Below are positions 6,088 to 29,784 of a DNA stretch of 64,000 nucleotides, piece after piece; positions within the stretch are counted from its first letter, which is position 1; each line of letters starts with the position of its first letter. The DNA lies in the NCBI GenBank assembly GCA_018902385.1, contig JABSSW010000024.1, forward strand, positions 310,001-374,000, given 5' to 3'. The notes under the pieces are model-generated. The model worked only from the letters and a program-made list of their open reading frames with translations, was not told the origin of the DNA and searched no databases. The DNA comes from Physcia stellaris (Eukaryota > Ascomycota > Lecanoromycetes > Caliciales > Physciaceae). The position numbers and the translations under genes are program-made.

Positions 6088-6310
6088 TGTTGGCAGGGAG
6101 GAGTGCGAAAATGGCTGGGCAACGAAAACTAAGATCGATAGGGTTAGACCTTATTGACATGACATTCGGCTGTTTATGAAACATCTTCATGAAATATGCA
6201 GTTTGTACATACTTTCATTCAAATATCTATCACTCAATAAGATTATTCTTGAAGGCATTACATCATACTATTTCGTACGTTTTGACGATGTGCTAGTGAG
6301 CCACTTTTCT
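6088..6310 (+). repeat. 5' LTR of the Ty3/Gypsy element
   Basis: 223 bp, beginning TGTTGGCAGG and ending CACTTTTCT (a non-canonical 3' end; the TG...CA rule is not met). It aligns without gaps to 14463-14685. The outer 85 bases keep many GG pairs that are mutated in the 3' LTR, so this copy is close to the ancestral sequence. Four sites are mutated here but not in the other copy. Confidence 0.9.
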
Positions 6311-6479
6311 GAAAATTTTGTCAAGATAATTCGAACGTCAGAGCAGATCGCTGTTAGTCGTTTTTTGACAAAGATATCGAAATTGTAAAGTGGCTCATTT
6401 CAGCATTTCTACAAAGGAATTCAACGCACATCAGGTCATGAGATATTAAAAACAGTATTCAGTCATTCAGCAGTCAGAA

Positions 6480-7010
6480 ATCACAGTATTAACAGACGAG
6501 AAACGACGTGCAGTTCAAGTCATTCAGTATCAGTCGACGAAAAACAACGTGTCGTTCAAGTCATTCAGTATCAGCAGACGAGAAACGACGTGTCGTTCAA
6601 ATTATTTAGTACAGATCGTGAACAACGTGTCGTTCAAATCAGTCAGTATCGTGTGTTAGTAAATCTGAAACAACGTGCCGTTCAAATCAGAAAATACAGC
6701 GTGTTAATAAATCGTGAACGACGTGTTGTTCAAATCATTCAGAAAGTTCGTGAACGACGTGCTGTTCAAAACAGAATCTGTGTTTACAGACTAAAAACGA
6801 CGTGCAGTTCAGATCATTCAGCGTAAAGTATCAGCAGACGAAAAACGACGTGTCGTTCAAGTCATTCAGTGCGAATACAAGCAGACGAGAAACGACGTGT
6901 CGTTCAAATCTTCAGAACAAAATATCAGCAAACAGAGAACGACGTGTCGTTCGAATCATTCAATATCAAACGACGAGAAACGACGTGTCGTTCAAATCAT
7001 TCAACAGTAA
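6480..7010 (+). repeat. Tandem leader repeat with hairpin core AACGACGTGTCGTT
   Basis: About twelve imperfect units of 36-48 bp lie between the 5' LTR and gag. Each carries a core AACGAC-GT-GTCGTT, whose 6-base arms are perfect inverted repeats around a 2-base spacer, followed by TCAAATCATTCAGTATCAGC or variants. Core positions are near 6497, 6547, 6585, 6624, 6671, 6719, 6753, 6796, 6844, 6891, 6939 and 6978. ORFs across this stretch are only repeat translations. The location is the untranslated leader, where packaging or dimerisation signals usually sit in LTR elements; a role here is inference. Confidence 0.85.
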
Positions 7011-7354
7011 CATCGATATCAGCGAATCAAATCGTTAAAAAATTTCGTTACGTTGTGAATATCAGATGTTATCGAAACATCATCAAAATCAGAAATAATT
7101 CATATTTACTTCACGACAGTGTCAACATCAGTCATTCATACAACTATTTGACAAAGAATTCATCAAATGTGTTTCGTACGAGTTTATCATTCGAATAACT
7201 AGTGTCAACGAGCTAGTGAGAAGTAACGACATACGCATATACTTGAAGACTCTCAAAAAAAATTTGCATTTAAACTTTTTAATATTCGAAACAAGAATTT
7301 GATCTGCAAAAGCTTCTGAGCATTATCATTTGTTTTGATACTTATTACTCAAAA

Positions 7355-8830
7355 ATGTTTTCATCTAAGAAAGAAATCGTGATTTCATCATTTACTGTTT
7401 ATCGAGAACGTCAATTTTTTACATCGTCACTTGATACGAGTCGAACTAGTAATTCTGTTCACTCGAACATTGATTCGAAAAATCAACTGTTCACTACGTT
7501 ATTTGAAGAATACATTCATCAGTCACATAGTTTTAATCCTGCTCAATTCATAAGAGATTTTATAAAACAAAAAGACTTCGTTCATTCAGAAAAATCAATT
7601 AGTTGAACTAGCAATATCGTCGATTTTCTTAGCAGTCTAGTACAACAATCATTCATTGTTCAGAGTCAGTCAGTCAAGCTTATCAAGATGAAAAAGTTTC
7701 AATTGAATTATTTCACTGAAAACAAATTTGCACGACGATGACTTCAAAAAATCAAAAAGACACTCGACGATGATTTTGAATCAAATGAATGAATTGCAAA
7801 AATCGAGTCAAAACTGAAAAACGAAATCGAGTCATGAACAAAAAAATCATTCACGATTCAGCAAATGATCAAAAAAAATGTCGAAACTAACATTGTCGAC
7901 AAAAATATTTTCGTGACATTGTTGTTGAAGCGATTTCCAAAAAGAAAAATCAAACAAAAAACTCGAAAGAATTGATTTGACAAATTGAAAGCGATTCAAC
8001 AGCAGAAAAATGAGACTTTGAACGATTATTACGAACGTGTGATTAATTTCTTTCGTGCAGTCGAAGAAGTCGATGATAAAAATGATATCATTATGAATGT
8101 AATTATTGAACAATTTGTCGCAAAACTTCACGATTTTGTTTTACGACGAAAAATCAAAACGAAATATGTAAACGTCACTAAAAACTTTCAAACGTTAAAG
8201 AATGTTTACGAAACGATCGAAAATCAATTTGCAATCTTGAAATCGAAGAAGAAAAATCGAACGAAGCAATTGAGAATGAATAATGACAAAAAACTTGTGA
8301 ATCTACGAAATGCAATTAATTTCTGAAAATCGAATATGCATTATCAAGCAAACGAAATCAAAGAAATTCAAATACGACTGATCAAGTTAGAATTCGACTT
8401 GAATAGCTTCGCAACAATATTTCGTTTTGCACGTCAACTACATCGTATAATCAGCAAAAATCGTATACAAAATGTTATTAACACGAAATTTATTTCAATT
8501 TTGCAACAATATTCAGAATATTCGTCGCAAAACTCGCGTGATCAGCAACAATCAATTGTACTCGTCGCAACAGTTAATGAAACAATACAATTTCGTGAGC
8601 GACGTCAATCCGAATCAGCTTTGATTATACGTCAGCAGCAAAAAAATCAAACGTTCTGATTTATTCGATGAAATCATTACAATCGAATCATCAACGATTT
8701 TCTTGAGTATAATCGAGACAAGCATGATAAAATTTGCATACGATGCGATGAAACAGAACATATACTTCGCGAATGTACGATGAATGAACAGAATCGTTTA
8801 AAATATGCAGTCGCACGTTTGTTAAAATGA
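7355..8830 (+). pseudogene. Degenerate gag with CCHC zinc knuckle
   Basis: The gag-like polyprotein starts at ATG 7355 and is interrupted by several in-frame TGA codons, for example in 7740-7980. A Ty3-type capsid stretch is visible around 7985-8200 (LNDYYERVINFFRAVEE...IEQFVAKLHDFVLRRKI). A zinc knuckle lies at 8735-8776 with spacing C-x2-C-x4-H-x4-C intact (CIRCDETEHILREC). The Gly residues normal inside this motif are now Asp/Glu, as expected from GG to GA mutation. The 113-residue stretch at 7985-8326 contains no Gly, Pro or Trp. Confidence 0.8.
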
Positions 8831-9694
8831 TTGATTGACATAAAGATTTCTGTAACATTCGAGAAAATTGCTCAGACGAAATTGAAGCGATCTGTTGACT
8901 TATTTGTCTCAGCGACATCATTTGCACAAATAGCAACAATAACGAGTATATCATTCAACACTCAACAGTCTGCGATAAATGCGATGTACTATACATATGA
9001 TACAGAAATTGAGAATGAAAACAACAATCAGCATGTTTTCACGACGAAATACGACGAAATGTATAACTCGAACAACTTTGTATCAAAAATGAGAAAGTCA
9101 ACGTCAAGATTAGTACAGATGAAAAAATTCGACTCAGAGAACGAAAAATCTGAAATGAATGAGATCGTCATTCAACGTTTTCTTGCAGTGAATTCAATTA
9201 CGATATTCGCAAATTCGAAATATAACTCGAAATCAAATGTCGATCAGTCAGCGAAAATCTATACGATAAAGACTCGAAAAAAAAAAAGACGAATGAAACA
9301 CGACGATGAAACATTTGACGTAAAAAAAGAATTTGCAGCGAAATCATCTGAATTTATCGAAAAAACATCAGCAACAGCATCTGTCAAAAAGAAAAAAAAA
9401 AAAATCAAAAAGAACATTGACAAGCTCAAGAAATTGAAAAAAATCAATGCTTTGAAAAACAAGCTTTCAATTAATGTTCAGGAAATTCTGAAAAGCAATA
9501 TTATAATCATGACAATTATTCAACTTTGTGCTATTTCATTTTTCTTTAAAAATGAGTTCAAGCGATTGATTTTTGCTTCGCGCAAATCACGAAAGAAACA
9601 AATCTTTACTAACACTGAAATTTCTAGAGTAAATTTGATTCAAGTTGATTTGTCAACGTTGAAATCAGACATCAAAGAAATGACAAAGAAATGA
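8831..9694 (+). pseudogene. Lysine-rich gag-pol linker region of the retroelement
   Basis: A 287-residue open stretch in the polyprotein between the zinc knuckle and the protease. It is Lys/Ser/Asn-rich with several poly-Lys runs and has no Gly, Pro or Trp at all. It has no recognisable fold and reads as a mutated disordered linker rather than a separate gene. Its openness reflects that few Trp codons were present to become TGA. Confidence 0.6.
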
Positions 9695-9699
9695 ATCGA

Positions 9700-10340
9700 A
9701 ATTAACAAGAATTTCACTGCATTCGAAGTGCTCGTTGTATTGCAAAAAGAAAACGACTCGACTCGTTATTCGTTTGAATATCAACATGTTAAAGCGAATC
9801 AAGATTTTGATCTGATTCTCATTGACAGCAAGTTAACTCATGACATGAAACTGAAAATTCATTATACGAGCGAATTCGTCAAGCATCAAATAACAATGAC
9901 AGTGATTAACGAGCAACGTAAAATTTTAAGTCATTGAATTATGCTCAACATCAATGCGAAGAGTATCAAGCGTCGTTTTTTCGCATTCGTGAATTCACAC
10001 GCAATGAGTACGAAACTTCTATTAGATTTCTCGTGACTCAAAGCAGTGAAAATTCAGCTGAATATTGCAGTCAAAATTATCACGATCGATGACAAAATGC
10101 TGAATAAGAATTCGATTATCATCAATTCTTTCGAGATTGTTGAATTCGCGTTGATCAAAAACATAATAAAAACGATCAAGAAAGAAAACAAGCGAGTCAA
10201 GAAAATAATGAATGACCACCTTAAAGAAAGAGAGAAGAGTGAAAAGAGCTCGTTTGACGAAACGAATTCTGATATCGACGAATCAAATGATAACGACTCG
10301 AACGATTTTAACGATGTCGACGACGACGAGAATTTTCAAT
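9700..10340 (+). pseudogene. Degenerate retroviral-type protease region
   Basis: The retropepsin C-terminal signature, normally LLGLPWL followed by a strand, appears near 10015-10060 as LLLDFS, TGA, LKAV. Gly has become Asp, Pro has become Ser and Trp has become a stop, each explained by one CC to TC or GG to GA change. The catalytic D-S/T-G is not recognisable to me. The region ends in an acidic stretch (10255-10340) that closes with TAA, a rare non-TGA stop that marks either a frame change or further damage. Confidence 0.55.
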
Positions 10341-10470
10341 AAATTTTGCGAATGATCATAAAAAACGCCCACGTGTTAAAAAGAAAATTGAAAAACATAT
10401 TGATATTAATAATGAGAAGACGGTCGAAGAAGCTGTTTCGAAATCGACATTTCGAATTTTCAAAATAGAG

Positions 10471-11900
10471 TTGAATGAAGTCATTTTTTACGAAATCAGT
10501 TCGACGTGTCGTTGTGATATCGAATACGCTTGTTTAAAGCATCATGAGACGAATGCAAATTTTCATGAGTATCGTACATTGCAAATTCAAGCGATTCTGA
10601 ATGATAAAGAGGTGAAATGTGAATGTTCTGAAAACATAAAATGTTTACTACATTGAGATGAACAGAAAAATCGTATGAAGACAGAAGAGAACGAAAATGC
10701 AATCGAGAAATTTCACGTCAACAATACAGTTTTAGACACTGATGTTATCGTCGATAATCTCACTTTTACGTCATTTTTTATTCAACGACGTCTTATTCGA
10801 CGAACTATTGACGAGTCACAATCATTGAAATTTCTGAAAGAGTGAAACAAGACTCAGAAAATCGAAATTGAGCGCGACATATCGAATTCAAAACGATTGA
10901 AATTTTTACAATTGATTTGAATTTATCGTGATGTAACAATCAACGATATCGTCGAAGTTTCTGTTACAGATTTAATTATTCATCGAGTTCATTCACGTCA
11001 AGATCTGAAATCGTACGTAACACGACAGTCACGCTTGATCAATGATAGAAAATGAAGACTTCGCGAAATCATTCAGAAAAGCATTGATGCGAACATATAT
11101 GAAAAAACAATGACAACAAATGATCGTACTTCTCAGTTCAGTTTTTTATTCAAGTTGACTTCGAAGAAAAGTGAAAAAAATCGTTTGATTTTCAACTATC
11201 ATTACATTTATGAGAATTCACAAAAGAATACGATGAAGCTGTTCAGAAAAATACAAGAATTGATATCGAATTCGAAGTGAAAAATGTTTTTCGAAATCGA
11301 TATGAAACATGAGTATTGAGAAGTGTCAATACATTCAGAAAATCGTCATTATTTAACGTTTCACATATCAGAAATAGATCAATTGCAATCAACGAAAATG
11401 TCGCAAGAAACTAAAACGTCGTCGTTCACGTTCACGAAATTTATGAACATATTATTGAAAATCATTTTTGCGTTTGATTCGAAATCATCATTGTTACATA
11501 ATGCAGATGAATCAGATTCGAATGCTGAATTTTATATCGATGACATATTTGGCGAATTCGAAATTTGACAACAATTATACGACTTTCTAGTACAGCAATT
11601 CTTCTCGCGATTGATGTGAAATAAGATGAGAATATTTTTCGGCAAATTACGCATTGAGATATTGAATATCAAGTGTTTAAATCAGATGTTCAATATAGAG
11701 AATTCACTCAACATCAAGCAAGAAACAATAGACAAAATACGCAATTGATTTGTGTCGCAAGACAAAACGAAAGTGAAAAATTTCATGAAAGTAATCAATG
11801 TTACACGCAGATGAATATTAAATTTCGACGAAATAACGAGATTTTTTCAACGTTTTCAGAACAAAACAGTCGAATGAAAGTGAATTGAATTCGAGAATTT
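10471..11900 (+). pseudogene. Degenerate Ty3/Gypsy reverse transcriptase
   Basis: RT landmarks occur in order. FEIDMKHEY at about 11290-11315 corresponds to the D-x-K-x-G-Y block with Gly mutated to Glu and a TGA in place of the following Trp. KMSQETKTSSFTFTKFM at about 11395-11445 corresponds to the M-P-x-G-x-x-x-S-P-x-x-F block with both Pro changed to Ser and Gly to Glu. YIDD at about 11533-11545 is the catalytic motif and is intact. Several TGA codons interrupt the frame (e.g. 10654-10656, 10842-10844, 11278-11280, 11566-11568). No functional enzyme can be made from this copy. Confidence 0.85.
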
Positions 11901-11937
11901 GACGTTTTTGACACTCAAGAAATTTGCGATTAACGTC

Positions 11938-12420
11938 ATGAACATGTTCGATCATGATTTTAATTTTTCAGTTGAAACATTTACAGACGCATCGAAATGA
12001 AACATCGAGATATACATTCGGCAGTTGCAAAACGATGAAATGAGATCTATTTTATTCGATTCGTACAATTTCACATCAACTCAACGCAGTTACGACACGT
12101 ACAAGAAGAAGTTATTCGCAATTGTTCATTTCACTGAGAAGCACGAGCATTATTTCAATGCAAAGAACATTTCAATTATACACACGAATCACAAATTTCT
12201 TGTTGAATTCATGAACGTCAAGAAGCACGAGAATATTTATGCACGTTGAGTCAACAAACTCAGAATGCACAATATCAAATTGAAGTATATCGAGAGCGAG
12301 AAAAACGTCGTTGCAGACGATTTATCACGAATCATTTACAACGTCGAGAATTGTGAGTCAAATCAATTCGTCAAAAATTTGTATCAGAAAGCGATCAAGC
12401 ATGTGAACGATAACGAGTGA
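11938..12420 (+). pseudogene. Degenerate RNase H domain
   Basis: RNase H features follow RT: FTDASK then TGA (usual Trp) at 11980-12000, STQRSYDTYKKKLFAIVHF at about 12076-12135, IIHTNHKFL at about 12175-12200 (TDHKPL with Asp to Asn and Pro to Phe), and a C-terminal KNVVADDLSRI at about 12303-12335 (normally N-x-x-A-D-A-L-S-R). A TGA at 12247-12249 replaces the Trp after an Arg. The order and spacing match Ty3-like elements. Confidence 0.82.
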
Positions 12421-12783
12421 TTTTGAAAAACAGAAAAAGAAAAATATCGTGACATGCTCAAGAAATTGTCAGACGAAAATCGAAAAAAACGAATTGAAAA
12501 ATACGATGACAAGTTCGTTTCGAAAATATATCATACGATTTGTTATGAGAGAAAAATGTTTTCGACATGTTTTGTTGATTGAATCACATTCAAGAAAAAC
12601 GTATCATCGTTCGAGTCTGATGTACAAAAAGTTGAGAAAAATGCATCTCGAAATTTATTAACAACAATAACGATCAGTGACGAGAATGAGACGATTGAAT
12701 CAGATTACATCAATGACGAGTGATATTCGAATATTTACAAATATTACGCATGAAATCAAGCATCTGAAGTAAATAAAACGACA

Positions 12784-14118
12784 ATGACAACATTTAAACG
12801 CAAAGTAAATATTTATCGATACGACGAAACGAGTAAACGACTATTGCACAAGTACAAAGATGAATACTGCGTCTGCTTACAGAAAAACGAAATTGCGTCA
12901 TTGCTACAAGAAATGCATGACGAAGCAGATCATTTTTTTACTAATATAATATTCGCTCGTATTAAAGACAAAATATATTGATTTTATATGATTTCGAACG
13001 TCAAGATTTACGTACAAGAACGCATGAAGTGTGTTTTATGAACATCAGTAATGAGAACAGTATCGTTGAAATCAATTCAGACGTATCAGTCGTATGATTT
13101 ATTCGACATTGATTTCATGAATTTGTCGAAATTTTCAAAGTACGATTACAAGCATATTTGCAACATGATGAATTATTTTTCGAGACGTTTATTTTCATAT
13201 TTTACTATCAGCATTAAGATCGAAAATGTAAAACAGACGCTCGAATATCATAAAGTTAATGATCATTTTATGTCAGCTGCAGTCTATTGGGACGTCGATA
13301 CAGCATTCAAATCGTCGAAAATGATCGAAACAATCAAGAATTTCAACATCGTTTTTATTCAAGCATTCAGTCAATCACATAAGTCAATAAAAATGATAGA
13401 ACGAATCAATAGAATTTTACGTGTTGCGATGAACAAAATGAAGAAAAAAAACGAGAATGTCGTTGATATATTTCGCCGAACGATCTCTGCATGCAATGAG
13501 AGACATATCGAACATTTGAAATACTCATTTGACGAAATCATTTTCGGAGTCGAGTCACGTGCATTCGCAACAGTCAATCTCGTTCAAGCAGTCATTCGAG
13601 ATGAAAAGATCGTGTTATCGACGTTCGAGAAAATGATTTCGCTCATTTGAAATCATATGACACGTCGTGAGAAGTTTCGTAAAAATGTTGTCAAGCGAAT
13701 TGATAAGGCGAAGCAGAGAATGAAAAAACGATATGACGTCGACGTCAAGCAACAGAAATATTTCCTCGAGCAAATTGTATTTCTTCGGAACTCAAATCCA
13801 ATACACAATAAGACAGAATCACGTTGGAATGAATCGTTCGTGATAGCAGAATTCGAAAAAGAACACGAATCAAGCTACAAACTCAGAATTCTCGAAAACA
13901 AATCAGCATCAAATACACATCATGAAAATCAATTGCGAGTATTTCGTGAACGTACTGAATATTTGCGCAAAGCCAACGAAGAAGATCTTTCGATGATGAA
14001 AAACTTGAGAAGAACACGTCGTAAGATGATGAAAAGAGCGCGTAAAGAAACAGCGAAAAACAGACGTTTCGAGACTTCGTTTACGAGAAATTTGGTCGTC
14101 GTTAAGATTTTCTGCTGA
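12784..14118 (+). pseudogene. Degenerate integrase, including C-terminal domain
   Basis: The HHCC zinc-binding domain begins at about 12915 (MHDEADHFFTNIIFARIKDKIY, then TGA at the usual Trp), with Cys residues of the second half near 13028. The catalytic core shows D (FDIDFMN, about 13100), D (YWDVDTAF, about 13284-13307) and E (MIERINRIL, about 13393-13420), so the D-D-E residues survive. The C-terminal domain (RYDVDVKQQ...VFLRNSNP...ESRWNESFVIAEF, about 13730-13860) ends HENQLRVFRERTEYL. This part keeps more Gly, Pro and Trp than gag or RT, so hypermutation is slightly less complete here. Confidence 0.85.
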
Positions 14119-14452
14119 CGAGTTAGAACACGTATTCGAAGCAGGCAATTGTCTCGACATCATACAAGATCAAATAGAACGAAATAACGAGAACTTCGAA
14201 GCATAGCATGATTTCGACAAAAGATTGTTGCGAAACCGAATACAATGTGACTGATCATTGAGCAAAAAGCTGAACTTATTAAGTTGAATTTTCAGTCATT
14301 TCATACAACGCTTGAATTCGATTTTGCTTTACAATCACATCACGTTTTGTTTTGCCTTATTCTTGAAGTTCATGACGCATTGTCATACACTGATTCGCAT
14401 AACGTGTTAGTAAAACGATTTGTTGTTGTTGTCGAGAACGACAACTTGTTAT

Positions 14453-14462
14453 GAGAGAGAAA
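14453..14462 (+). other. Polypurine tract of the Ty3/Gypsy element
   Basis: GAGAGAGAAA lies directly before the 3' LTR, the position and composition expected of the plus-strand primer site. It supports placing the 3' LTR start at 14463. Confidence 0.75.
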
Positions 14463-14685
14463 TGTTGACAAAGAGAAGTGCGAAAATGACTGAACAACGA
14501 AAATTAAAATCGATAAAGTTAAATTTTATTGGCATGACATTCGACTGTTTATGAAACATTTTCATGAAATATGCAGTTTGTACATACTTTCACTCAGATA
14601 TTTATCACTCAATAAGACTATTTTTGAAGGCATTACATCATACTATTTCGTACGTTTTGACGATGTGCTAGTGAGTCACTTTTCT
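14463..14685 (+). repeat. 3' LTR of the Ty3/Gypsy element
   Basis: 223 bp, gap-free to the 5' LTR. Nineteen of the 23 differences are mutated in this copy, all C to T or G to A. Its first 85 bases have lost almost all GG pairs still present in the 5' copy. Confidence 0.9.
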
Positions 14686-14690
14686 GGAAA
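14686..14690. repeat. Target-site duplication, right (GGAAA)
   Basis: Exact match to 6083-6087, immediately after the 3' LTR. Confidence 0.7.
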
Positions 14691-14995
14691 TGTTCCGAAG
14701 TGCGCTAGTGGCTCCTTGCCCTGATTCTGGCTTGGCGTTGACGAAAAAGGGGGTAAAGCAGGGAGATTGGGGTCGATTCGAAGAAGAGCAATAATAGTCC
14801 CTAGAGTATGGGAATTTGTTTCATGTATCACCTGAATCTCTTCAATGTCATATGTTATACAAAAAGCATTCTAGCCAAGGTCTTAAGGTATGTTAGGTGT
14901 ACAGCATGCATGAGACTTCCAGGCGCCATGCAATCATCCTCAATCCTCATGCCTCCCAAAGTCCGGAAATCCAACGCACTGTCCTATAAAACACT
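14691..14995. other. Intergenic, nothing recognised
   Basis: Ordinary-composition DNA between the retroelement and the 3' end of the TCP11 gene. No gene or repeat is recognised. Confidence 0.5.
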
Positions 14996-17812
14996 TCATG
15001 TCGTCGTCGAGGCTGCAATCTCGTCATACCATTTGCCATGAGCTTCACGATCCACATCGGCTACTTTTCTCAACTCCTCAACCAGTGACCCGACTTGACC
15101 GACAATTTCGCACAAGCCACCCGAAGCTAGCACTTCACTTGCGGTGCTACTCGCTTTGATACGTTCATCTGCACTCGCAGCTGAAAGATGAGTGAATATG
15201 TGCGTCTTGATCTTCTGTAGAAGAACCTTCATGACCGGGTGAGTCGCTTGCCCGAGCCTCGCATCCTGTAAAACACGATCTATAGTGCCCAACAGTGCTG
15301 TTTTGGTGGTAGGCGGCATTGCCTGAGGGAGGGTGGAAAGGAAGGCTTGCGGGTCTTCGTATGGCAGTTCCCACATGCGCTGAGCTTCTGTTTTCCATTG
15401 TGAGCGCACATCACGTTTGAGGAGATTCTTAGCAGTGAGGAGAATAGCTTCGACGGTAATCATGCGGAGGATTTCAGATCTGATCCGCTTCATCCGATCT
15501 TGGTCCAATTCAAGAGTCTCTGGCAACTCGGAATCCTGTACTTCTGTCACTGCCACTGCGAGATCGACCAGCCCTTGCATGTAGATCTTATTTGGCGTGA
15601 TCCTAGTATCGGGCCTTCCAGCACCGTTGCCAGACCGCCTCGTAGCGTCATCTTGTATCCTATCATTTGCTTTCCTCCACCACTGCATAGTCTTCGTGAG
15701 TGGCTTGTTATTGAATAGTTCTGCGAAGCGATTATATTCGTAGCTGGCAACTTGTTCCAACAACATGGGAGCATTCATTTGTAGTGTGAAGTTGGCATTA
15801 TCGAGCGACAACAAATCGATCACATAATTCAGCTTGGCGAATCGTTCAATGGGATCGTCCATTGAATCCTCAGCCCATGCTTTGACCTCTGCATCTCGGA
15901 CTGGCGCACACAGCTTTGGTAAGATCTTGTTGAAGAAGGAGAAGAACCGCTGATACGAGAAAGCGCCCATCTTTACTTGATTTGCTATGACCGATGGATC
16001 TAGTGCCTCCGATATCAAATGGTGGAGAGATTTTCCGGGCTGGACAAGACCAAGCAGCTTATCACGCACGGTTTGAGCCATTGCAACTATCCAGACATCA
16101 CCTAGTCCAGAGCTGAGACCTTCTCGGAGGTCCTCTGAAACGGCTTGCAGAATGTCTTCTCTCGAATCCGCTCGTCGGGTAAGATCGATTCGATACTCCT
16201 GATTTATCGCAAGTTCATGCATGATCGTTCGGTTATCCGGTAGAGATGAACTTGCTCTTCTGAGTTCCTGGGTATGGCGAGACCAGTCTGGTGATTGAGC
16301 GTCAGATGTAGAGCTAGAATCCTCCAACCTGCCTTGCGACAACATCGAAACATTTGAGGCAGCTCGAGGTCTGGCCTCCTTTGCAGGCTTAACTTTCTTC
16401 TTCCGGGACTTTGCTCTCCTCGCTTCTTGGACAGCATCTTTTACTGCTTTCATAGCTTCACCATGCCCCAGCAGTCGCTTGAGTCTGACAAGGATTAAAG
16501 TCTGATTCTGTTGAATCCCTTCTCTGTAGTCACTAGAGACGCCTCCGTCCGAATCGTCCTTGACAGACTGCCATATTGCATCCAATTCCACAAATTGAGC
16601 AATCATAGTTCCAACCAAAACAGAGGAATCATGGTCTTTCCAAGCGGCAAACGCAGATCGGAATGAAGAGTATGCTTCCAGGAAGGAAGCTCGGTGTGTA
16701 TGAAAGAATGAAGTAGATTGAGGACTCGAGATCATAATCTCAAAGTCGTCTAGTAGAAATTTTGCCTTTGCAATCAAGTCCTGCTCTTGTATGCCGTCTC
16801 TACTCAAGACTTGTTTAGGATGTCCTAGGATCAAGAAGGCGCTTAAAAACATCCGAACTGCGGCCCTGTCTTTTACTGCGTCGTTCTCGGTATCATGTAG
16901 ACCGCAATTCCTTAGCATATGAGCCGTGCATGTAAGCACCCTTTCCTGGCTTAATAATAAGCTAAGGTCATCGAAGTTCATCCTTCGAACGGTCTCCACA
17001 CTCAAGCCGAGGTCTTGGAACGTGGAGGATATTCTCCGCCATTGTCTATTTTTCCAAGCTCTTTGCAGCAGCACTGCGGCTTCATGCTCATTGGGAGGCT
17101 TCCAGACATATGGCATCACCTTCATCTCTTCGACTGGTGCGAGATGAGAATTGTTCTTCGTCCGCCTCAGGTTTTGCTGATAAACAAGTCTTCTCCTTTC
17201 CGCTTCAGCAAGCCGTTCTTCCATCTCACCCTTTAACCGCAGGTGTTCGGCGGCCTTCTTCTCTCGGGTGTCTTCAGCCACCCTTTTTGCGCGTTTGACC
17301 TCCTCATGACAGTTTGCTGCGACTTGGGCTAGATATCTTTCCCTCGCTTGTTGGGCAGCCAGCGCACGCTCTTCGCTATTCGCGTTTACTCGTGGAGCAG
17401 CTTTGGCCATTGCCGCTCGAAGGCGGACTTTCTCGGCATGAGCTGCCTTCTCCGCCAACCTTGCTTTGCGGCTTTCTAGGAGAGATGCTCGGCGTAGATG
17501 CTGGGCGATATGAGTACTCTGTGGTCCACCATGAGAAGAGCGCGCGGATCTACTTGAGTGATGGGAAGACATGGAGTTGCGACGAGATGAAGCTGCTGAG
17601 GACTTGCGGCGGGCGGTATTTGTTGAGGATCGACAGAAGCGTGCTTGTATACGCGGTGGTAATATGTAGTCGCCGAGACCTTCACTGTCAGAAGACATGA
17701 TGGTATCTCTATCGGGGCCAGGCATGGTGCCTGGTGGATGTTCAACAAAGAAGCTGATGGTTCCGGAGAGCAAAGAGTGGCTGGTATGACGAATCAGGAG
17801 CGTCACATGCAT
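14996..17812 (-). CDS. TCP11 (T-complex protein 11) domain protein, SOK1-like
   Basis: A single open frame of up to 938 residues. Residues 45-110 are Ser/Arg-rich and disordered. Residues about 110-215 are Ala/Glu/Arg-rich and probably coiled coil. An IQ-like helix follows near residue 245 (EAAVLLQRAWKNRQWRR). The TCP11 domain occupies roughly the last 600 residues, with stretches such as IVAMAQTVRDKLLGLV, ALDPSVIANQVKMGAFSY and FAKLNYVIDLLSLDN. Yeast SOK1, a suppressor of protein kinase A loss, belongs to this family, so a cAMP-related signalling role is possible but inferred. The first ATG (17812) adds 29 hydrophobic residues that look out of place; the ATGs at 17725 (MPGPDRD) or 17698 (MSSDSEG) are more likely starts. 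No intron is needed. Confidence 0.85.
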   Translation of the reverse strand: MHVTLLIRHTSHSLLSGTISFFVEHPPGTMPGPDRDTIMSSDSEGLGDYILPPRIQARFCRSSTNTARRKSSAASSRRNSMSSHHSSRSARSSHGGPQSTHIAQHLRRASLLESRKARLAEKAAHAEKVRLRAAMAKAAPRVNANSEERALAAQQARERYLAQVAANCHEEVKRAKRVAEDTREKKAAEHLRLKGEMEERLAEAERRRLVYQQNLRRTKNNSHLAPVEEMKVMPYVWKPPNEHEAAVLLQRAWKNRQWRRISSTFQDLGLSVETVRRMNFDDLSLLLSQERVLTCTAHMLRNCGLHDTENDAVKDRAAVRMFLSAFLILGHPKQVLSRDGIQEQDLIAKAKFLLDDFEIMISSPQSTSFFHTHRASFLEAYSSFRSAFAAWKDHDSSVLVGTMIAQFVELDAIWQSVKDDSDGGVSSDYREGIQQNQTLILVRLKRLLGHGEAMKAVKDAVQEARRAKSRKKKVKPAKEARPRAASNVSMLSQGRLEDSSSTSDAQSPDWSRHTQELRRASSSLPDNRTIMHELAINQEYRIDLTRRADSREDILQAVSEDLREGLSSGLGDVWIVAMAQTVRDKLLGLVQPGKSLHHLISEALDPSVIANQVKMGAFSYQRFFSFFNKILPKLCAPVRDAEVKAWAEDSMDDPIERFAKLNYVIDLLSLDNANFTLQMNAPMLLEQVASYEYNRFAELFNNKPLTKTMQWWRKANDRIQDDATRRSGNGAGRPDTRITPNKIYMQGLVDLAVAVTEVQDSELPETLELDQDRMKRIRSEILRMITVEAILLTAKNLLKRDVRSQWKTEAQRMWELPYEDPQAFLSTLPQAMPPTTKTALLGTIDRVLQDARLGQATHPVMKVLLQKIKTHIFTHLSAASADERIKASSTASEVLASGGLCEIVGQVGSLVEELRKVADVDREAHGKWYDEIAASTTT

Positions 17813-18590
17813 GGAGAACGTGATTAGTCAGCATTCACGAACATCCTTCATCCATCCGGCAATGAAGGCTCGAAGGATAGACATTGCCCAGAATGATGAA
17901 GGTTTACGTCTACAATATCAGACACTTTTAATTCACTATAATCCTCGTTACCAATGAGCACACTTTCTATTAATCTAACCGTAGTGATAAAGAAACTCAC
18001 CCGTACCATCGAATCATTAAACCCCGAGATCAAAGGACATAAGTTACATTGATTGGCAGATGGAGTTTCATAACAGTTGGTAGGACGGTATCAGCAACAA
18101 AACAATGATTGGATCCTGCCAGACGATGAAAATCTACACAGCCGGCCCGAGCGATGAAGGGAGTCAAGGCTTCAACAGTAAAGCTTGATGAGAGCATTTG
18201 GAGACATTGATCAAATACAACATCTAGTTTGAAGATTCTGCTTGCCACGCTATGCACACCGTGGCCCCAACCCAACTCCCCGCCATGCCTGCTGGTCACA
18301 CACTCGTTCGCTCGCGTAGGAGGTATGCATTTCAAGCCATCAAATGCCGTCAAGCGACCAGCTTTAGTCTTCTCATAAAGTGCTCAAGCGTTTGCCCACG
18401 GGGTATATGTTTTGCATTGCTCGCCGTATGCTTTCCAAGGGTAAAAAAGGGGTAGATGGTGAAGGCTAAATATACAAGAATGAACAGATACTGAATTTTT
18501 GATGAAGCTCTAATCCTGCCTGAGAATCGAGTCGCCTCAAGTATCAAGACCAGTGCGCTCTGCGCAAACTTTGAGAAGAGGATTCACCCT
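17813..18590. other. Intergenic, nothing recognised
   Basis: 5' flank of the TCP11 gene and 3' flank of the secreted-protein gene. ORFs here are short and without recognisable domains. Confidence 0.5.
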
Positions 18591-19759
18591 CTAGTAGCGC
18601 ATGTAACCGCCTGTTGGCTTAGCTGTGAAACTGGCTGATGGCTTGGTGATGAAGCCAGTCGAGGCGCACTTTGTCTTGGTCTTCTTGGGCCGATCAGTGT
18701 TGGTACCGTTGCCGAATGGGGCGGAGCCACTGATGGATGGGATAGCTGTCTCGATTGGTGAATTTCCAGCAGTGTTTGATCCTTCAGGGCCAGCAGTCTA
18801 AAATCTATTAGCGGTATGTACATGTGGTCTTCACCAAGGGAACCTACGACTGTGACCGTCTGAGCGGGGCCGGTAACGGTAACAGTGACTTGTGGCTTGC
18901 AGCTGCCGCCGGCACCTCCTGCACCAGAGCCACCGATCGGGCTGTTACCCTCTTGGACGCCAGTTGGGCTGGAGATGGGCTGGACTGTGATAACCTTAGT
19001 GAAGGTTGAGGTGTGCGAAATCGTTGTAGTAGGTTCGCCGGCGCCTGATCCACCAGTTGCCTCGAGACCGCCGGTAGAAGTACTCTCGGTTGCGTAGACG
19101 GTCTGTTTAATGTTAGCTAGAAGCCGATGTTAAAAGAGTGCTATATTGCGTACCTCGACTTTGGTCTCGGTGGAAGTGTGTTTGATGGTTGTGGTTACGA
19201 CGGTGGTGGATGAGCCAGAGCCGAGGGTGTAGGTAAGAGTTGTGTCCGAGGTCTTGGTTTCAATTGGCCCAGGAGCAGTTGTGATCCCAGAGCCACTTCC
19301 GGTACCAGTACCAATGGGACCTTGAGGGACGCTTGAAACCCCTGTGCCAATTGGGCTATTGCCCAGGGTGGAACTGACACCTGGAGTCTCCGAGATAGGG
19401 TAGGGAGCAGAAGCTGATCCGGTGCTCGCAGAAATGGGCACGGTCTCCGAGCTGGAGACGCCAGTGCTTAATGGAATAGTAGGGACGACCACTGAGCTTG
19501 AGAGGACCGATGTGGTGGCTACACCAGTACTGAGGTTTGGGAGAGATGTGGTTCCAGTTCCCGCAATCTCAGAGGTAGATACCGAAACAGTGCTGGCGGG
19601 TGAGCCTGGGATTGAGGTTGAATTGTGGTGAGGCTTGGATACATGAGAGTGTTTGTAGCTCTTGGGGCCATAGCCTCCATATCCACCATATCCTGGAGAA
19701 GCAGCTTGCGCGGCGGCTGCCAAAGCCACAATAACGCTGACGGAAAGCTTGGTGAACAT
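18591..19759 (-). CDS. Secreted Ser/Thr-rich mucin-like cell-surface protein
   Basis: The ATG at 19759 opens a clear signal peptide (MFTKLSVSVIVALAAAAQA). This is followed by a GYGGYG segment, a His-rich patch (KHSHVSKPHHN) and a long Ser/Thr/Gly/Pro-rich region typical of heavily O-glycosylated fungal wall proteins. Two introns are supported: about 19105-19154 (joining KVE to TVYATEST) and about 18797-18842. The final exon ends ...KPTGGYMRY, stop at 18591-18593. I see no hydrophobic GPI-type tail, so it may be secreted or wall-associated. No enzymatic domain is seen. A TTG-initiated extension upstream to 19777 is ignored because the signal peptide begins exactly at the ATG. Confidence 0.75.
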
Positions 19760-21348
19760 CTTGCTGTATTGATGCAATAGGCTTGGAGGATTTCAGATGT
19801 AGGTATTGTGTTCGTCCGAGTGTATTTGCCTTGTAGGGGTAAAATCCTATGCTTGTACAATGCGCTTGTGCTTTTGAAGTCGTGAGGGCTAAAGAGCGTG
19901 GGGCGAAATCTATTCGCAAAAGAGTGACTGAGAACTTTGAAAGAGTGTGCAGTCTCAAGGACCGAAAGCGACAAGATGCAAATGAACGTGGTGGAGAGGA
20001 AAGGAAAGGAAAGAGAGACAAAGGAATCAGGAGATGAGGGCGATATGGGGGAGGCGGCGCAAGGAAATGAGCATCAGGAGGTGATGCCAGGATTGGCCAG
20101 ATCGAGCTACATCGTTAGTCCTTTAGCTGAGACAGGAGAAGCGAAATGCAGGTACACGGTCATGTCGAGGGTCTGATTGGCTCATCTCCTCCCCGCTACG
20201 CATCGAGCAGGGGGTCAAGCGGACCAAGCAAACATCAAACACCGTAATCCCCTTTGCAGATGGCGGATGTTGCTTTCCATCCTGTGCCTGTTTGGGACTT
20301 TGGAGGATTGTTGGGGTCTGGAGAGATCAATCGTGGGGACTCATGTTGCATTCGCCGCTGGATTGTAGGTTCATTTGCTGACGTGTTGAGCATCTTCTGT
20401 TCCCGGGTGACCTGCAGCTGAGGCCTGACGGTACGACAGAAGCCATGTGGTTGTAATACTTCGGAGAATTGGCAACCCAATGGTTTGCACGTAGTCGAGA
20501 TTGGACTGCGGCAACACGTCTTGGTACGCATGACGAGATGAGCAGACCAAGTCGTCGAAGCGCTTGGGTAGCAGCGTGTTGTCCAGGCAGACCAGTCTTA
20601 TTCAAGAACACTCGTGCTCTGGTCGTCCTCTGTTGTGCTATCAGCATGTGGTAAATCTGGCTCTGTTGGTGACAGCAGCTCGACCAGAGGCAGCAACTCC
20701 ATGTCGAAACAAGTGAAGTACTCGTACCTGTCCCAACTCCTTTCGATGGCCCTCCCCCTGGGATGGCTCGGGTGGATGGCAGGCTAGCCAAGCCAAAGAG
20801 CGGTTCGAATCTGGTCGAGAACGGGAGCGGCGATGGCGAGTTGTCCTTAGGCGGTTTCACGTGGAAATGACATAATTTGAGCCCCATTCGATAGCTAACC
20901 GAGCAACAATCCGATTGTCCCCGCCCCCACAATACAATCATCTTTTCTGTAGATCAATCCACAGTGCTTTAGAATTCCGACATGCACTGCTTCATATCGC
21001 CAATGAAGCGAAGATTGACATGGACGAAGCATTTGCCATTCTTGAGGCAATTCCTATCATAAACGCGATCTGAGACCGAGGAGGTAGGCACGAAGTTTCG
21101 AGTGTCTCTCAGCAATGGACCTCTCCAAATTCGTGAAATCGGACAGTCGTGATTACATGCGATCGCCCCGAACTCGTGAAGTCGGACAGCTTTGAGTTCA
21201 TTTGGTTGTCCAGCTTCGTGAATGCGTGTAATGATAACATACTGCTACCTAAAGTATCTGACCACTGTCTACTACCTTCACCCCACATTCTCCCTGATCC
21301 ATATTGTACATGTTCTGACAAGGCAGCTATCGCAATGAGGATAGTACC
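19760..21348. other. Intergenic, no supported gene
   Basis: Contains the promoter side of the secreted-protein gene. A 204-residue minus ORF (20327-20941) has no recognisable domain and overlaps other ORFs on both strands. Near 21128-21195 short repeats of TCGTGAA(G/A)TCGGACAG recur, loosely resembling the 480-650 motif cluster. Confidence 0.45.
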
Positions 21349-23447
21349 ATGTTTTCTTTCGCTCATCAACTATCCCAGCTCGAGCATACTTTGGAAGCCA
21401 GAGGCCTCAAGCTTACAACCAATTCTTCCATAAAACTCTCTTCCCCGCATGATATCTTTTCCTCAAGTCTTCCACCATCAAGCCAGCTTTCCAGCCTGAT
21501 CTCTGCAGGCGTCTGGATTAGCAGAGGCAATGGGCTCATCTTCTACTTTAGCTTTGATACAGCAGGTATATCTATCTCATCGTCCGATCGGATGAACTTA
21601 GTGGAGACTCTTGGTGTGATAATTAGGGATGCAGAGGTCCTTCTTCATTCCTTACTATAGATATTTCTGATATACTGAGTATGACTTTGCAGCTCTGGAG
21701 CCAGCTTGGCTTGAAAGCAGCGCTCACTTTTCCTACCAACTGTACCATCTCCTCCAGGAAGCAGCCGGACTTGCTTTTGAAGTTGAGCCATCTTGCTTTT
21801 CAACAAGGCTTCATACAGTCTAGCAAAGCAGGAGGCGATTCCTTTGTGACAAGAGACACGATCCCTCCGAGAGGAGTTCTCGTCGCTCACCTCGAGGAGG
21901 TCGCAATCACATGGAGATTTTCCCTGCCACCTGCTTCTGCCCTTGCCAAAAAACGAAAGGTTGACCGATCATCTTCCAGTCTCGCGGACGAGACGTTCTA
22001 TGACATAGCTGGGGATAGGAATGACATGATTCTCCTAGACGATTTGTCGTATCATCGCTGCCCGCATCAAAAGGTCCCCAGATACCAAGCATCCGAACCT
22101 GCAGCTACAGACATCCCTGAATTTGGGGACAACTTCATGCTGGATACAGACCACTCATCGCAAGAATCCATTGTCTCCTCAACTTTCTCACAAGGACTTA
22201 ATTCGAACGGCTCAACAAGTAGCTCTTGTATGCTGTTGCCTGAAGACAGCACCGTACCAAAGGGGACCATCCCAGATTACAAAGTTGTAGTTGACGATTG
22301 GGCAAAGCTGGTAGATTTATCTTTTCGCTCTTTGATATATAGCGACAAGATGGCTTCAAAGGGGACTAGCCGTGATCGGCGCTCAATTGAACCCAAGCTT
22401 GCAGGAATATCACCGCCGTTATTCAGCCCCGGTTATCTGCCTGTAAGTTTTTATCTTGCAAACCATGTACGTGTATATAACGCTGACAATTTCTTTCTAA
22501 AGGCAATTGCACACCGTAATGCACATATTTCCAGCGTTGCCCAGAGTATCACTGCAGTCTACAATCGTTCAAAATCGCCCGCCTTCAGGTTAGAAATCGA
22601 GCAAATGACCAGTCTTTCCTTAGAAGAGCGTCTTCACATGCTTCGTGATGGGTCAGGCACTGAAGCAGACAACCAACCTAGTTTGGTTATGACATCTGCC
22701 ATCAAGCTTCGTCTGTGGCAAGTTTGTCAGCGCATACTCTTCGACTCAGCTGCTGCAAAGCGCCTAAGTCCATTGAAACTCAGTACGGAGCGGTCTGTAG
22801 CAGACACTTGCATCTCTCAGGTAATGCTCGATGAAGAGGACCCTCGCTGCCCAGGCGAAAGAGTATCAGCTATGATGGAGAGTGGGAATTTGATTAAGAA
22901 GTCGGTATATCAAGATCCAGGCGCCCAAGTAGATTCGCTGCAAGAATTTAGCCGGGATACATTGTTCGAAGGACCTGATAGTCTTGATCACCAAATCCTT
23001 TTCATTGACAAATGTAGTTTCGAGGATGACCTTTTCTGCGATTCCTGGATTCAAGACAACGATTTGCATCTTCCTGATGTCTTACCGGATGAGCTCGAGG
23101 GTGATGAACTGTATGATTCCTTGTTCACAGAAGACACCTCGACCTTCGAAGACGACGGTTCGCACACATCCGAGCGCATAGACGAACTGGCCAGCGAACC
23201 ACTACCCTCTCTTCGTATTTCCGTCCACAACGACGAGTCATGTCTCCTCAATGGGAATATGTCAGACGCCGACTCTGAGAATACTCCTTGCCAGAACCAC
23301 GGCATAGAAGACAAGAACGTGAAGGATACCAAAGTTGGTGACAGCTACGACATCTCTGACATTAAGCTTGAGGCTAGCGACCAAATGCTTATAGACGACG
23401 AAATGGAAGGCATTGGCCTCCGCGAAGAGATACTTCTATTAGACTAG
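21349..23447 (+). CDS. Hypothetical protein, acidic C-terminal half
   Basis: I do not recognise this protein. The main open stretch (21681-23447, up to 588 residues) starts near a Leu/Ser-rich section, has a basic KKRKVDRSS patch that resembles a nuclear localisation signal around residue 90, and becomes Asp/Glu/Ser-rich after residue 400. A perfect intron-like block (GTAAGT...CTAAAG, 22443-22502, 60 bp) is in frame and stop-free, so it could be spliced out or retained. An upstream ATG at 21349 opens 103 residues that may be the true N-terminal exon, joined by an intron ending at the TTTGCAG before 21711; the donor is unclear. The length and unbiased open frame support a real gene, and the nuclear signal suggests a nuclear protein, but no function can be given. 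Confidence 0.55.
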
Positions 23448-24865
23448 TATTGGTATGAGTCATCAAAAAGATAAAATATAAGACAAGGCTCCTGTCTTGG
23501 TCACCTGCTTCCAGATCTCGACATTGACCCCATTCACCCTACTCATTAACCCCTTCTCTCCTCAAGTGTCATAGGTCGTCCGTCGCCCAGCGAATCAGCT
23601 CATGCCCCTTCCATTAATACAACTTACGAACGAAGTAGGCCATTTCACCAATACTGCGTCAAATATCGCAATCAGGTTGAGCAGGCATAGTTCCCTTCTT
23701 GCTGTCCTTTAGTTCTATTGCTGTTTCGGATACGGAGTACTCCATCCTACGTCTCGTCAACGCTGTCACAAGGGATTGGGAGTGAAAACATCAGGCGGGA
23801 CACCGACCTTCACTCCTGGGAAGCCCTGGTCTGACTGTCATCACTTCATATAAATTCTCCGTACTCAGTCGTCACTACTGGGATCAAGTGTAATTACTCT
23901 TTTCCCATCCTTAAAAGACGGCAGAGTCTGCTACGAAATGACAAAGCCAAGATGTATGGATTGACCCCGAATGAAGAGAAGAAAAGTAGGTCCACCAAGG
24001 TTGATATTGGAAGATAATTGCAAGGAAGTCTCTATTCCTTACAGCGAAGAGGAGACAATAAAATGAGCGGTATCGAAGATGAATGAGGGACGCTCTCACT
24101 TCATTATTGACTGTATTACTTGAAGATATACCTACCAACATCTCGTCATATCTTTCGTAAAAGTAAAGCAGAAGGAGTTAGGTACAGCTGCACCTTCTCG
24201 TCCGGATCATGCGACCATCGAGTACAATTCGTAAGTACAAGTCGGCAAAACCTTCCGATCATGCATGCACTCACACTCACTAGGCGAACCAAGGTTGCTG
24301 TGCTGGAAACTCTCAACCTGCATTTCAAGCGGTCAATTTTGCTTACATTATTCTCGATATTCAGGTTGCTCTTGCATAAACTAATAGTTACGAGCATTCA
24401 TCTCTCAATCGATTTGACGTGCATATATCATTTGGCTCTTCAATTTTAGCCGAGTACAGCGGGCCCGCTGACACACTATCTACAGGCAACTGTGGGGCTG
24501 TGGAATATGCAAGACCCACCATCGGCAATACCGTCTCACTCGTCCGCGCATCAAGCGTGGGTGGGGTGGGGTCATCGTCGGATCTTTGCGTACAGCCTGA
24601 TCAACGACAAAAAGTGCCTTCCTTAAGCATCATTTAGTTCTTTCATTGTATCCTACTCCTAGGCCATGAGCTAGGCTGACTCCTGACAGAAATCAAATCG
24701 CTCACTTGCTCCTGCTATTCTAGTAGACATCTCCTTAGTACAGGAGCCGGAATTGTCTGGATTATTAACAGGTGCTTCAGGATAAGACAAGACTCTCATA
24801 ACGCAGACTTGACGTTCACGCTTGCTCCTCGCTACGAATGCGTACCCGCTGCCTCATAAATCAAC
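23448..24865. other. Intergenic, nothing recognised
   Basis: About 1.4 kb with only short ORFs. It is the 5' flank of the NLR gene. No repeat or RNA gene was recognised. Confidence 0.5.
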
Positions 24866-27800: not shown

Positions 27801-28554
27801 AGACATCCCTGACAAGGGTTTACTATGGGAAAAACCATCTTCCCGACTCCGATCAAGCCTGGGCTTCCGGAACGGTGCAGGTAGCATTAATAGCGCAATC
27901 GATGAACCCGCGGAAGCCCCTCTTCACTACGCAGCTCTACATGGATCTGTTGCTTGTGTATCCGAGCTCATTCGTCTCAATGTCAATCCTAACGTACGGA
28001 ACTCACTAGGAGATACGCCATTGCTGAAAGCCTTAGAAGGCTGGCACGACCAAATCGTGCAGATGCTACTTCACGCTGGAGCCGACGTCAACCCACGTTC
28101 CCTGTACGGTCGGACGCCTCTACATTTCGCCGCTGCATCGGGCCAGTATGAGACGGCAATTTCGCTTGTGCGATATGGTGCCGATCCTCACTTGCAGGAT
28201 TCTCTTGGCTCCACACCCATTGAGACGGCGAGGCGCTATAACAATGACCGACTTTGCTTGTCGTTGGAAGCCTTGGCCGGTGGCAGTCAGGTCAATACAG
28301 CTCCACAGGGCCCGTTCATGCTTGAAGCAGAGATCGAAGCCGCAATCGGAGCTGATAGCAGTAATGAGTCGCCTCCTGTACCGCCTACTGACCTCAAATC
28401 CCCAGACAAAGTGTTGTCAGAATGGAATAATCTTCTAGGAAGCAAAACCAGACACTCCAAATGGGGTCGAACAAGGCTTGGAGACTTTCTTCGCGGTACT
28501 CCAAAGTTAAGGAGAAAATTGGCGACGGGGCCTTTAGGCGAGCAGAAGGGGTGA
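24866..28554 (+). CDS. NLR-like STAND protein: helical N-terminal domain, NACHT, ankyrin repeats
   Basis: Four exons (24866-25177, 25274-26013, 26063-26665, 26727-28554) give about 1,160 residues with all junctions in frame. The N-terminal 300 residues are helical and resemble the domain preceding NACHT in many fungal NLRs (YDPIHASLPWAGVRLLLQ...LITRYAIVEELYL), possibly DUF7708-like. The NACHT part has Walker A GIPGSGKTTLV at the exon 2/3 junction, Walker B TIVLDALDECD, a sensor-like KIFVSSRED, and GMFRWVSLQI. A winged-helix-like region follows (FAHLSVRDYLE). The C-terminal third has about five ankyrin repeats (for example GETCLHIAVRKERKDLLQLL, LYGRTPLHFAAASGQYETAI). Fungal NLRs of this plan act in non-self recognition and programmed cell death; that role is family knowledge, not shown here. 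The gene ends about 0.5 kb from a transposon-rich island. Confidence 0.9.
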
Positions 28555-29438
28555 CGTGGTTGAGTGCAAGGCGTCGACGGCAAGGCTGTGACCAAATCCG
28601 TATTTGGCGATGTCCATCTAATCAATCACAGCAGGAGATCAAGGTAACAACGATAAGCAACGTACCTTGTAGCATGTGAGCATGTAATTTGCTTATAGTT
28701 TTCATGGAGCTGTAGCGAACAAAATATCCTGGACAGAAGAATTTAGCGTAGCAGAAGGTTGTGTCGGCTTCGTTGCGTGACAAGCCAGCTACTGTAGGAT
28801 CCGGACGACGGGTTATGTTTGTCTTGTGGTGGGATTAGGCCAGGAATCATCATGCCCACATTAATAAGGGTCGCAATCATCAGCCATGCTTAGTATGAAA
28901 TTGAAAGAAGTAAGAAGCGACAATGACAACGAAACAAGGCAAACGCCTGCAAACTGCAACAGCGCTTTATTTTAGGGTTGGGGTTATCAAATATCGTGGC
29001 TTTCGCCACCTAGCATTATCGCTCTGTTACCACCACCACCACCGCTCTGTTGTACGAAACACCACATTATTGACAATTCACGATTATACGTTGAGGCGTT
29101 AATAATTTTGCGTTCGAATATACACATGATTACGTTCAAATCGCAAAAATCGATCATTTATTCAAGCAGTTGACAGTTGACTCTTGACTGAATTTTTCTG
29201 TTGCAATTGCAATTGCAACATTGTTGCAATTTCTATTGCAATTTCTTTTGCAATTGCAATTGCAATATATATACAAGAATTCTTTTAACGTGCATTTCAC
29301 ATTAGCGTTGTTGAGCACGTTAGCGTTGTTGAGCACGATTATCGCATATCGTTAATACATCAATGCGTATTGCGTCAAGAATTTCATGATTTCGAATCGT
29401 TGTATTCGTTTTTAACAAGTTTTCATGTCATTTTTCAT
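28555..29438. other. Intergenic transition into the second AT-rich island
   Basis: Normal composition to about 29060, including a short CCA/CCG microsatellite at 29030-29045. Beyond about 29070 GG and CC disappear. At 29199-29268 a palindromic TTGCAA/CAATTG repeat occurs, and at 29306-29338 an 18-base unit (GCGTTGTTGAGCACG core) is present twice. No gene. Confidence 0.6.
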
Positions 29439-29447: not shown

Positions 29448-29537
29448 AAAAGTCATTATTCGCACGTGCGATTCGTATTTGCACGTGTCAAGACTGTCCG
29501 GATCGCGCTTTCGATAAAACAGAATTCTGAACATTTT
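29448..29537 (+). repeat. Left terminal inverted repeat of the MULE
   Basis: Begins AAAAGTCATTATTCGCACGT and matches the reverse complement of 32088-32177. It keeps a TCCGGA that has become TTCGAA in the other arm. It also contains the palindrome CGCACGTGCG. Confidence 0.88.
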
Positions 29538-29784
29538 TAAAATTCGATATGTTCGAATCAATGTATGAAAATCAAATGCTCGTTTTTCGATCATTTTGCA
29601 AACAGACATTGATGTTCTAATTTCTACATACATTTGATCGTGACGTCATCGAATTTTGTATGAGAATTTTCGTTCATTTGACTTATTTGATTTTGTTCGA
29701 TCAATCAAAAATTTTCTTGATCGCAAATCGACGATTTGCACACTTTTTTCTTTTCGTCGATTTTTCGCTTTTCATATCAGCTTT

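Follow-up and report, generated by a model that had tools for sequence, protein, structure and literature searches.

The window analysed here, a stretch of 64,000 nucleotides of the Physcia stellaris genome (GCA_018902385.1, contig JABSSW010000024.1, positions 310,001 to 374,000), carries at 6088-14685 a Gypsy-type element with long terminal repeats (LTRs) that has been mutated heavily and according to a strict rule. After insertion its cytosines were changed to thymines on both strands, nearly always where the 3' neighbour was a pyrimidine (CpC or CpT, together CpY), and GC-rich DNA close by is unmutated. The pattern reaches beyond this element: the other sampled repeats show it too. We put at about 85% the probability that it records a defence of the type known as repeat-induced point mutation (RIP), converting C to T before a 3' pyrimidine and acting faster at CpC than at CpT. 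The process operates in the manner of RIP but with its target preference inverted, departing from the CpA targeting of classical RIP, and its placement in the RIP-type class of mechanisms is well supported.

The gap-free alignment of the two LTRs (223 bp) has 23 mismatches, every one a transition, exactly as an earlier note on this DNA had claimed (23 substitutions, no indels, all C/T or G/A). Its further claim, that the mutated C always stood before C or T and never in CpA or CpG, was confirmed: the C-bearing state was CpC at 11 sites, CpT at 12, and CpA or CpG at none. Chance is ruled out as the source of this pattern by comparison with the 65 unchanged C/G sites, which comprised 33 CpA, 15 CpT, 14 CpG and 3 CpC (Fisher p = 2.3e-10). 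The C was retained at 19 sites in the 5' LTR and at 4 in the 3' LTR; both LTRs were thus mutated post-insertion, as the note had held in stating that the changes arose in place after integration. Among the long copies of the family elsewhere in the genome, CpY transitions between LTRs accounted for 17/17 in locus L009 and 25/26 in L011 (the other being at CpA; one LTR match of L011 is 16 bases short, and those columns were left out of the comparison), next to the 23/23 of the window copy, L012, with zero transversions in all three. The LTR pair of L010, a copy without hypermutation, differs by 11 substitutions, comprising 7 transitions, 2 of them at CpY, and 4 transversions. Since 65 of the 66 transitions in the three mutated pairs fell at CpY and no transversion accompanied them, mutation must have been fast relative to ordinary substitution.

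The spectrum was then resolved across copies of the family. The LTR query gave 37 matches in the genome (43.97 Mb, 147 contigs), and 20 stretches, L009-L028, were examined; L010 (C11:416800-425800, GC 0.485), the long copy with the fewest mutations, served as the polarising reference, L015 and L017 were aligned over their matching pieces only, and L013, L014, L016 and L018-L028, partial or diverged matches, were not aligned. With strands pooled, C-to-T change relative to L010 affected 729/893 CpC (82%), 414/1087 CpT (38%), 48/1167 CpA (4%) and 46/952 CpG (5%) sites in L009. The corresponding figures were 770/894 (86%), 508/1090 (47%), 52/1172 (4%) and 42/949 (4%) in the window copy, 853/893 (96%), 961/1074 (89%), 79/1167 (7%) and 43/949 (5%) in L011, and 305/312 (98%), 422/455 (93%), 22/442 (5%) and 15/376 (4%) in the L017 fragment. 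The spectrum of the sampled copies and families is therefore dominated by CpC and CpT and not by CpA; dominance of CpA was what the note had named as refuting its reading.

Rates on the top and bottom strands agreed within about 6 points, except for CpT in the window copy (0.54 vs 0.43), and the base 5' of the mutated C had little effect. The estimated CpC/CpT rate ratio was 3.5 in L009 and 3.2 in L012. Within CpC, the triplet CCA was mutated at 93% (L009) and 91% (L012) of sites, compared with 65% and 66% for CCC, because a second C already turned into T leaves the first in the slower CpT context; the 3' base thus seems to be read at the moment of mutation.

Several unrelated element families carry the same substitution rule. 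When the element with terminal inverted repeats (TIRs) in the window was compared with three pieces of contig C47, the differing C sites were 14/14 at CpC, 154/210 at CpT, 18/704 at CpA and 1/645 at CpG. For the second LTR element of the window, five copies in ten pairwise comparisons (36 of 291 candidates were scored) provided 8 CpC, 1646 CpT, 7107 CpA and 6282 CpG cells, with differing cells at 73% for CpT, 13% for CpA and 12% for CpG. CC is missing from both strands of the Copia copy L043 over 2001 bases. Blocks of AT-rich DNA with 25-26% GC were also seen at C39:444200-453900, C41:442300-452000 and C47:10000-19500, and are probably stacked mutated repeats.

Base composition gives the same picture on a larger scale. 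The AT-rich set consisted of 149 windows of 500 bp from L009-L028 (74.5 kb, GC 0.266), loci picked around the LTR family rather than at random, and the GC-rich set of 161 windows. Densities per kb and strand in the AT-rich and GC-rich sets were 0.18 vs 56.2 for CC, 12.5 vs 66.6 for CT, 65.2 vs 68.0 for CA and 55.0 vs 54.2 for CG, so that nearly all of the C loss sits at CpC and CpT. Decay driven by CpG methylation was rejected as an explanation, as CpG is not depleted. The possibility that CC/GG loss also affects DNA outside repeats was tested on GC-rich DNA, and none was found: the 47.5-kb GC-rich control within the window had observed/expected ratios of 0.957 for CpC and 1.076 for CpT, and in ten 2-kb stretches taken at one fixed offset per contig from ten contigs, 39 of 40 windows were GC-rich with normal CpC, the remaining one being AT-rich and devoid of CpC. 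By published cut-offs, the AT-rich windows fall on the non-RIP side of both standard indices, with TpA/ApT at 0.43 (cut-off 0.89) and (CpA+TpG)/(ApC+GpT) at 1.39 (cut-off 1.03) (PMC10998396, PMC6180176).

The borders of the mutated DNA vary in sharpness. At 14685 the count of CC/GG per 150 bp jumps from 1 inside the element to 22 outside, and the edge at 36035 spans about 150 bp; the border at 6088 is a gradual one (15, 11, 2), owing to the few mutations in the 5' LTR. Mutation is also weaker towards the ends of copies: in the terminal 250 bp of three copies, CpT loss was lower than in the middle at 6/6 ends, and CpC loss was lower, clearly or slightly, at 5. One stretch of the window copy (L012, 4800-7800) had unequal CpT loss on the two strands (84/123 vs 84/217, p = 1.7e-7), in a region picked after viewing the profile; RIP clusters of Neurospora are described as strand-biased (PMC7296669).

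The effect on coding capacity follows from the genetic code, in which mutation at CpY can create a stop codon only from Trp (TGG to TGA), and not from Gln (CAA, CAG) or Arg (CGA). The longest frame of the window element is 287 aa under the standard code. With TGA translated as Trp, one frame of 1019 aa and another of 1291 aa open up, and between them they hold 35 TGA, 2 TGG and 106 CAA/CAG codons; TAA and TAG are absent from them by construction, and it is frame length that constitutes the evidence. These counts fit the claim that TGG codons had turned into TGA. Pfam matches in the longer frame follow the order of Gypsy elements: reverse transcriptase (RT, weak), RNase H and the integrase zinc-binding domain (weak); three pieces of the upstream frame had no Pfam match, and its designation as gag is inferred from position. 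A degenerate repeat of about 41-nt units occupies the leader of the element (6487-7001). Across the genome, stops inside matches to RVT_1 (149 of 150 rows), RVT_2 (137 rows) and DDE_1 (10 rows) were TGA in 694 cases, TAA in 137 and TAG in 6, counted on scored candidates only (150 of 527 for RVT_1, 150 of 165 for RVT_2).

A search of the genome with the PF00145 profile, in line with the note's proposal to look for RID and DIM-2-type methyltransferases, returned three genes. Judged by their motifs and placement, the genome holds two RID-family genes and one DIM-2-like gene. The first, L035 (protein P0001, contig C5), is RID-like, with SPPCQ in motif IV, EQT in motif VI and a PF00145 domain alone, no BAH domain being matched. 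The second, L033, combines SPPCQ with EET; alignment to a 524-aa Heterodermia protein covers the full domain, with in-frame stops confined to two short inserts with GT-AG ends, and the absence of BAH was checked on its relatives P0128 and P0125 rather than on spliced L033. The third, L034, is a 1118-aa frame with ENV in motif VI and Pfam matches to PF00145 and DUF7893 but not to BAH, a domain that marks DIM-2 along with ENV; we call it DIM-2-like. In a quick tree of 65 rows (63 of 239 proteins plus translated L033 and L034), L033 belonged to a distinct 14-row clade (support 100) outside the lichen RID clade containing P0001 (99), and both clades were placed on the RID side, separate from the DIM-2 row (SH-aLRT 97; the DIM-2 row is a long branch). 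A sequence search of the PDB with P0001 retrieved distant relatives only (DNMT1 and bacterial methylases), of no help on specificity.

Motif VI of the Masc1/RID family is reported as EQT or EET in place of ENV, Rid of Botrytis cinerea being one of those with EET (PMC6709928), and B. cinerea is also reported to carry a CpT signature (PMC4352252). Joining these two facts from two papers makes the EET-type paralogue L033 the leading candidate for the mutator, on grounds of analogy, with the EQT-type L035 and the DIM-2-like L034 as alternatives. The proposed mechanism is that a mutator, which would be a RID-family methyltransferase, deaminates C to give T, whether or not methylation comes first. 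It would require a pyrimidine as 3' neighbour, act faster at CpC than at CpT, and attack both DNA strands of transposons until heavily affected copies end with almost no CpC. Duplication would be the trigger and the sexual cycle the time of action.

Compared with known systems, the process in Physcia resembles Neurospora RIP (RID/DIM-2) in acting on C:G pairs to give T:A in repeats, on both strands, in a sexual fungus with RID-family and DIM-2-like genes. It differs in its targets: the order cited for N. crassa is CpA>CpT>CpG>CpC (PMC5496416), whereas in Physcia CpC precedes CpT, and CpA and CpG remain near background. The note's view of a RIP-type process with a different sequence preference is thus supported by the use of both strands, the CpC over CpT order, the sparing of GC-rich DNA and the presence of RID-family genes. 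Trichoderma reesei also departs from the Neurospora spectrum, with CpA~CpG ahead of CpT>CpC, but there CpC is the least preferred target and here the most preferred (PMC5496416). CpT signatures have been described in B. cinerea, Sclerotinia sclerotiorum and Magnaporthe oryzae, and tied to a RID-protein motif (Amselem 2015; PMC4352252), as well as in Colletotrichum truncatum and in Anisogramma anomala, which has two rid copies (PMC10998396, PMC6180176). These fungi share mutation of CpT, but in the portions cited CpT is mutated alongside CpA or in alternation with it, and a CpC signature is not named. CpT to TpT is given as dominant in RIP-capable fungi by PMC7882544. In repeats of Stagonospora nodorum, analysed in the RIPCAL paper, CpC is one of the dinucleotides depleted and CpT is mutated to some extent, as in Physcia, but CpA to TpA is dominant there (PMC2621366). 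Hypermutation in Microbotryum and rusts likewise turns C into T in transposons, but targets CpG, which Physcia spares, through a Masc2-type enzyme (PMC4352252). A 2025 survey covering 1,239 species concluded that a preference for CpA is common to RIP-like defences (PMC12543289), and strong RIP is reported for a Cladonia genome, no dinucleotide breakdown being found in the part available (PMC12542154). Within the accessible open-licence literature, no fungus with CpC as the main target was found; the 'CpC' of PMC5602860 is a strain code.

Passive decay deserves most attention among the rival explanations. Non-CpG 5-methylcytosine laid down by DIM-2 in heterochromatin could deaminate slowly with no dedicated mutation step, and both the DIM-2-like gene and the CpT preference stated for Neurospora DIM-2 methylation in a 2026 review (PMC13297926) would suit this. 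The preferred target here is CpC and not CpT, however, and the mutated LTR pairs, with 65/66 transitions at CpY and no transversions against 4 transversions in 11 substitutions for L010, speak for fast mutation, which makes slow decay improbable. An AID/APOBEC-like deaminase editing retroelement cDNA or single-stranded DNA would explain the predominance of C-to-T change, and the genome has eight PF00383 matches to deaminase-fold genes. Such enzymes, however, read the 5' side of their target, whereas here the 5' base matters little. C and G targets change at similar rates instead of on one strand, and the TIR element is mutated as well, so that this reading is very improbable. A deaminase-family match on contig C64 with four TGA codons was considered as a CpY-mutated gene and rejected, its DNA being GC-rich with normal CpC. 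Ultraviolet damage in a sun-exposed lichen would also strike CC and CT, which are dipyrimidines, but its probability is practically negligible: TCA and TCG, equally dipyrimidines, were changed at 2-7% in L009, L011, L012 and L017 against 85-97% for TCC, their rates in L015a (25% and 10%) and L015b (9% and 7%) are still far below this, and GC-rich genic DNA is undepleted.

A sequencing artefact, in which Nanopore miscalls of methylated C stayed unpolished in repeats, is scarcely credible. Such miscalls are expected to be strand-specific in raw reads, and C and G targets were lost equally. The P. stellaris genome was obtained from an ascospore-grown culture and assembled from R9.4.1 Nanopore reads with Canu and Racon, which would leave room for such errors, but two MiSeq polishing rounds followed (PMC7513301). 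That paper describes an assembly of 46.57 Mb in 184 scaffolds with 43.3% GC, and no RIP analysis was found in its accessible text (PMC7513301). Relatives in other assemblies bear on the same question. With a 184-aa mutated Copia open reading frame (ORF) in its natural frame as query, a choice that favours mutated matches, 36 relatives were found at the protein level at E <= 1e-10, 34 of them from ENA. Gly and Pro were both absent from the aligned part in 31 of the 36; three others had one or two such residues, and P0257 and P0269, with 14 and 16, look unmutated. Gln, His and Arg were kept in nearly all. The loss of Gly and Pro fits the CpC rule, under which GGN and CCN codons are destroyed, and homologous ORFs free of both in other assemblies would, at the level of protein sequence, argue against an artefact. 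No relative of this ORF turned up when viral contigs were scanned.

Several observations weigh against the RIP-type interpretation, or against parts of it. The fragments L015a and L015b, more diverged than L009, L011, L012 and L017, have high rates at CpC (384/400 and 247/263) and CpT (443/485 and 241/281), but also elevated ones at CpA (95/519, 18%, and 42/337, 12%) and CpG (49/429, 11%, and 24/274, 9%), so that in old copies a small CpA component or ordinary mutation may add to the CpY signal. The CpC/CpT rate ratio is only 1.4 in the near-saturated L011. TAA makes up 137 of the 837 stops counted above (16%), and mutation at CpY cannot produce it directly from a sense codon; TAG carries an ApG target and would convert to TAA, the remaining TAA otherwise needing ordinary or CpA mutation. 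On restriction to repeats the picture is mixed: GC-rich DNA is unmutated and the edge at 14685 abrupt, but repetition was demonstrated for only part of the AT-rich DNA, and at 29449 the edge is blurred, CC-free DNA running about 300 bp past the TIR. Neighbouring targets showed no same-strand streaks in L009 or L012. L010, with diverged LTRs, broken short frames in place of the long pol-gag frames of the window copy and no CpY hypermutation, looks like an old copy that escaped. Other elements are untouched, with RT matches in stop-free open frames of 833-1624 aa. As to the agent, RIP at native duplicates in Neurospora falls by 81.8% when DIM-2 is lost (PMC11969663), which keeps DIM-2 in consideration, and C. 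truncatum, reported to lack a RID orthologue, has CpT signatures (PMC6180176), which weakens the link between RID and CpT.

Features of the window and stop-free RT frames elsewhere in the genome (contig:position).
Feature	Position	Strand	Basis
5' LTR of the Gypsy-type element, the less mutated LTR	6088..6310	+	LTR alignment
Long frame upstream of pol, in gag position; 12 TGA read through, 0 TGG left	7283..10342	+	
pol frame; 23 TGA read through, 2 TGG left	10312..14187	+	Pfam
3' LTR; 23 CpC/CpT transitions relative to the 5' LTR	14463..14685	+	LTR alignment
GC-rich genic DNA, mostly within the 47.5-kb control	14686..29000	.	composition
Element with 89-nt TIRs; AT-rich CC-free DNA about 300 bp further left	29449..32176	+	
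Second LTR element, with LTRs at 32621-32829 and at 35827-36035, many genomic copies, CpC nearly gone	32621..36035	+	
Stop-free RT frames	C5:1166521, C12:60312, C39:289506, C8:902437, C42:398640, C7:889944		

Genes of host type in the window encode an FMN-dependent dehydrogenase (4301-5371), a Tcp11-domain protein (14996-17827), an ankyrin-repeat protein (26722-28554), a protein with a dual-specificity phosphatase domain (54773-55972) and a fungal C2H2 zinc finger protein (59604-60902). ARAGORN and Rfam scans of the 64 kb gave no matches.

A RIP-type process can thus have its choice of targets inverted, with a nearly complete CpC/CpT rule and CpA largely spared. Indices built on CpA can miss very strong repeat mutation, and systems of this kind might go unnoticed in other fungi. 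CpY-mutated elements such as that at 7283-14187 read open under genetic code 4, and gene callers that choose the code automatically could mislabel contigs containing them. For the Physciaceae, we tentatively suggest, as a conjecture with rather less than even odds, that the second, EET-type RID paralogue took over repeat-induced mutation with a CpY rule, replacing CpA-directed RIP; the two RID paralogues within one genome offer material for mapping specificity.

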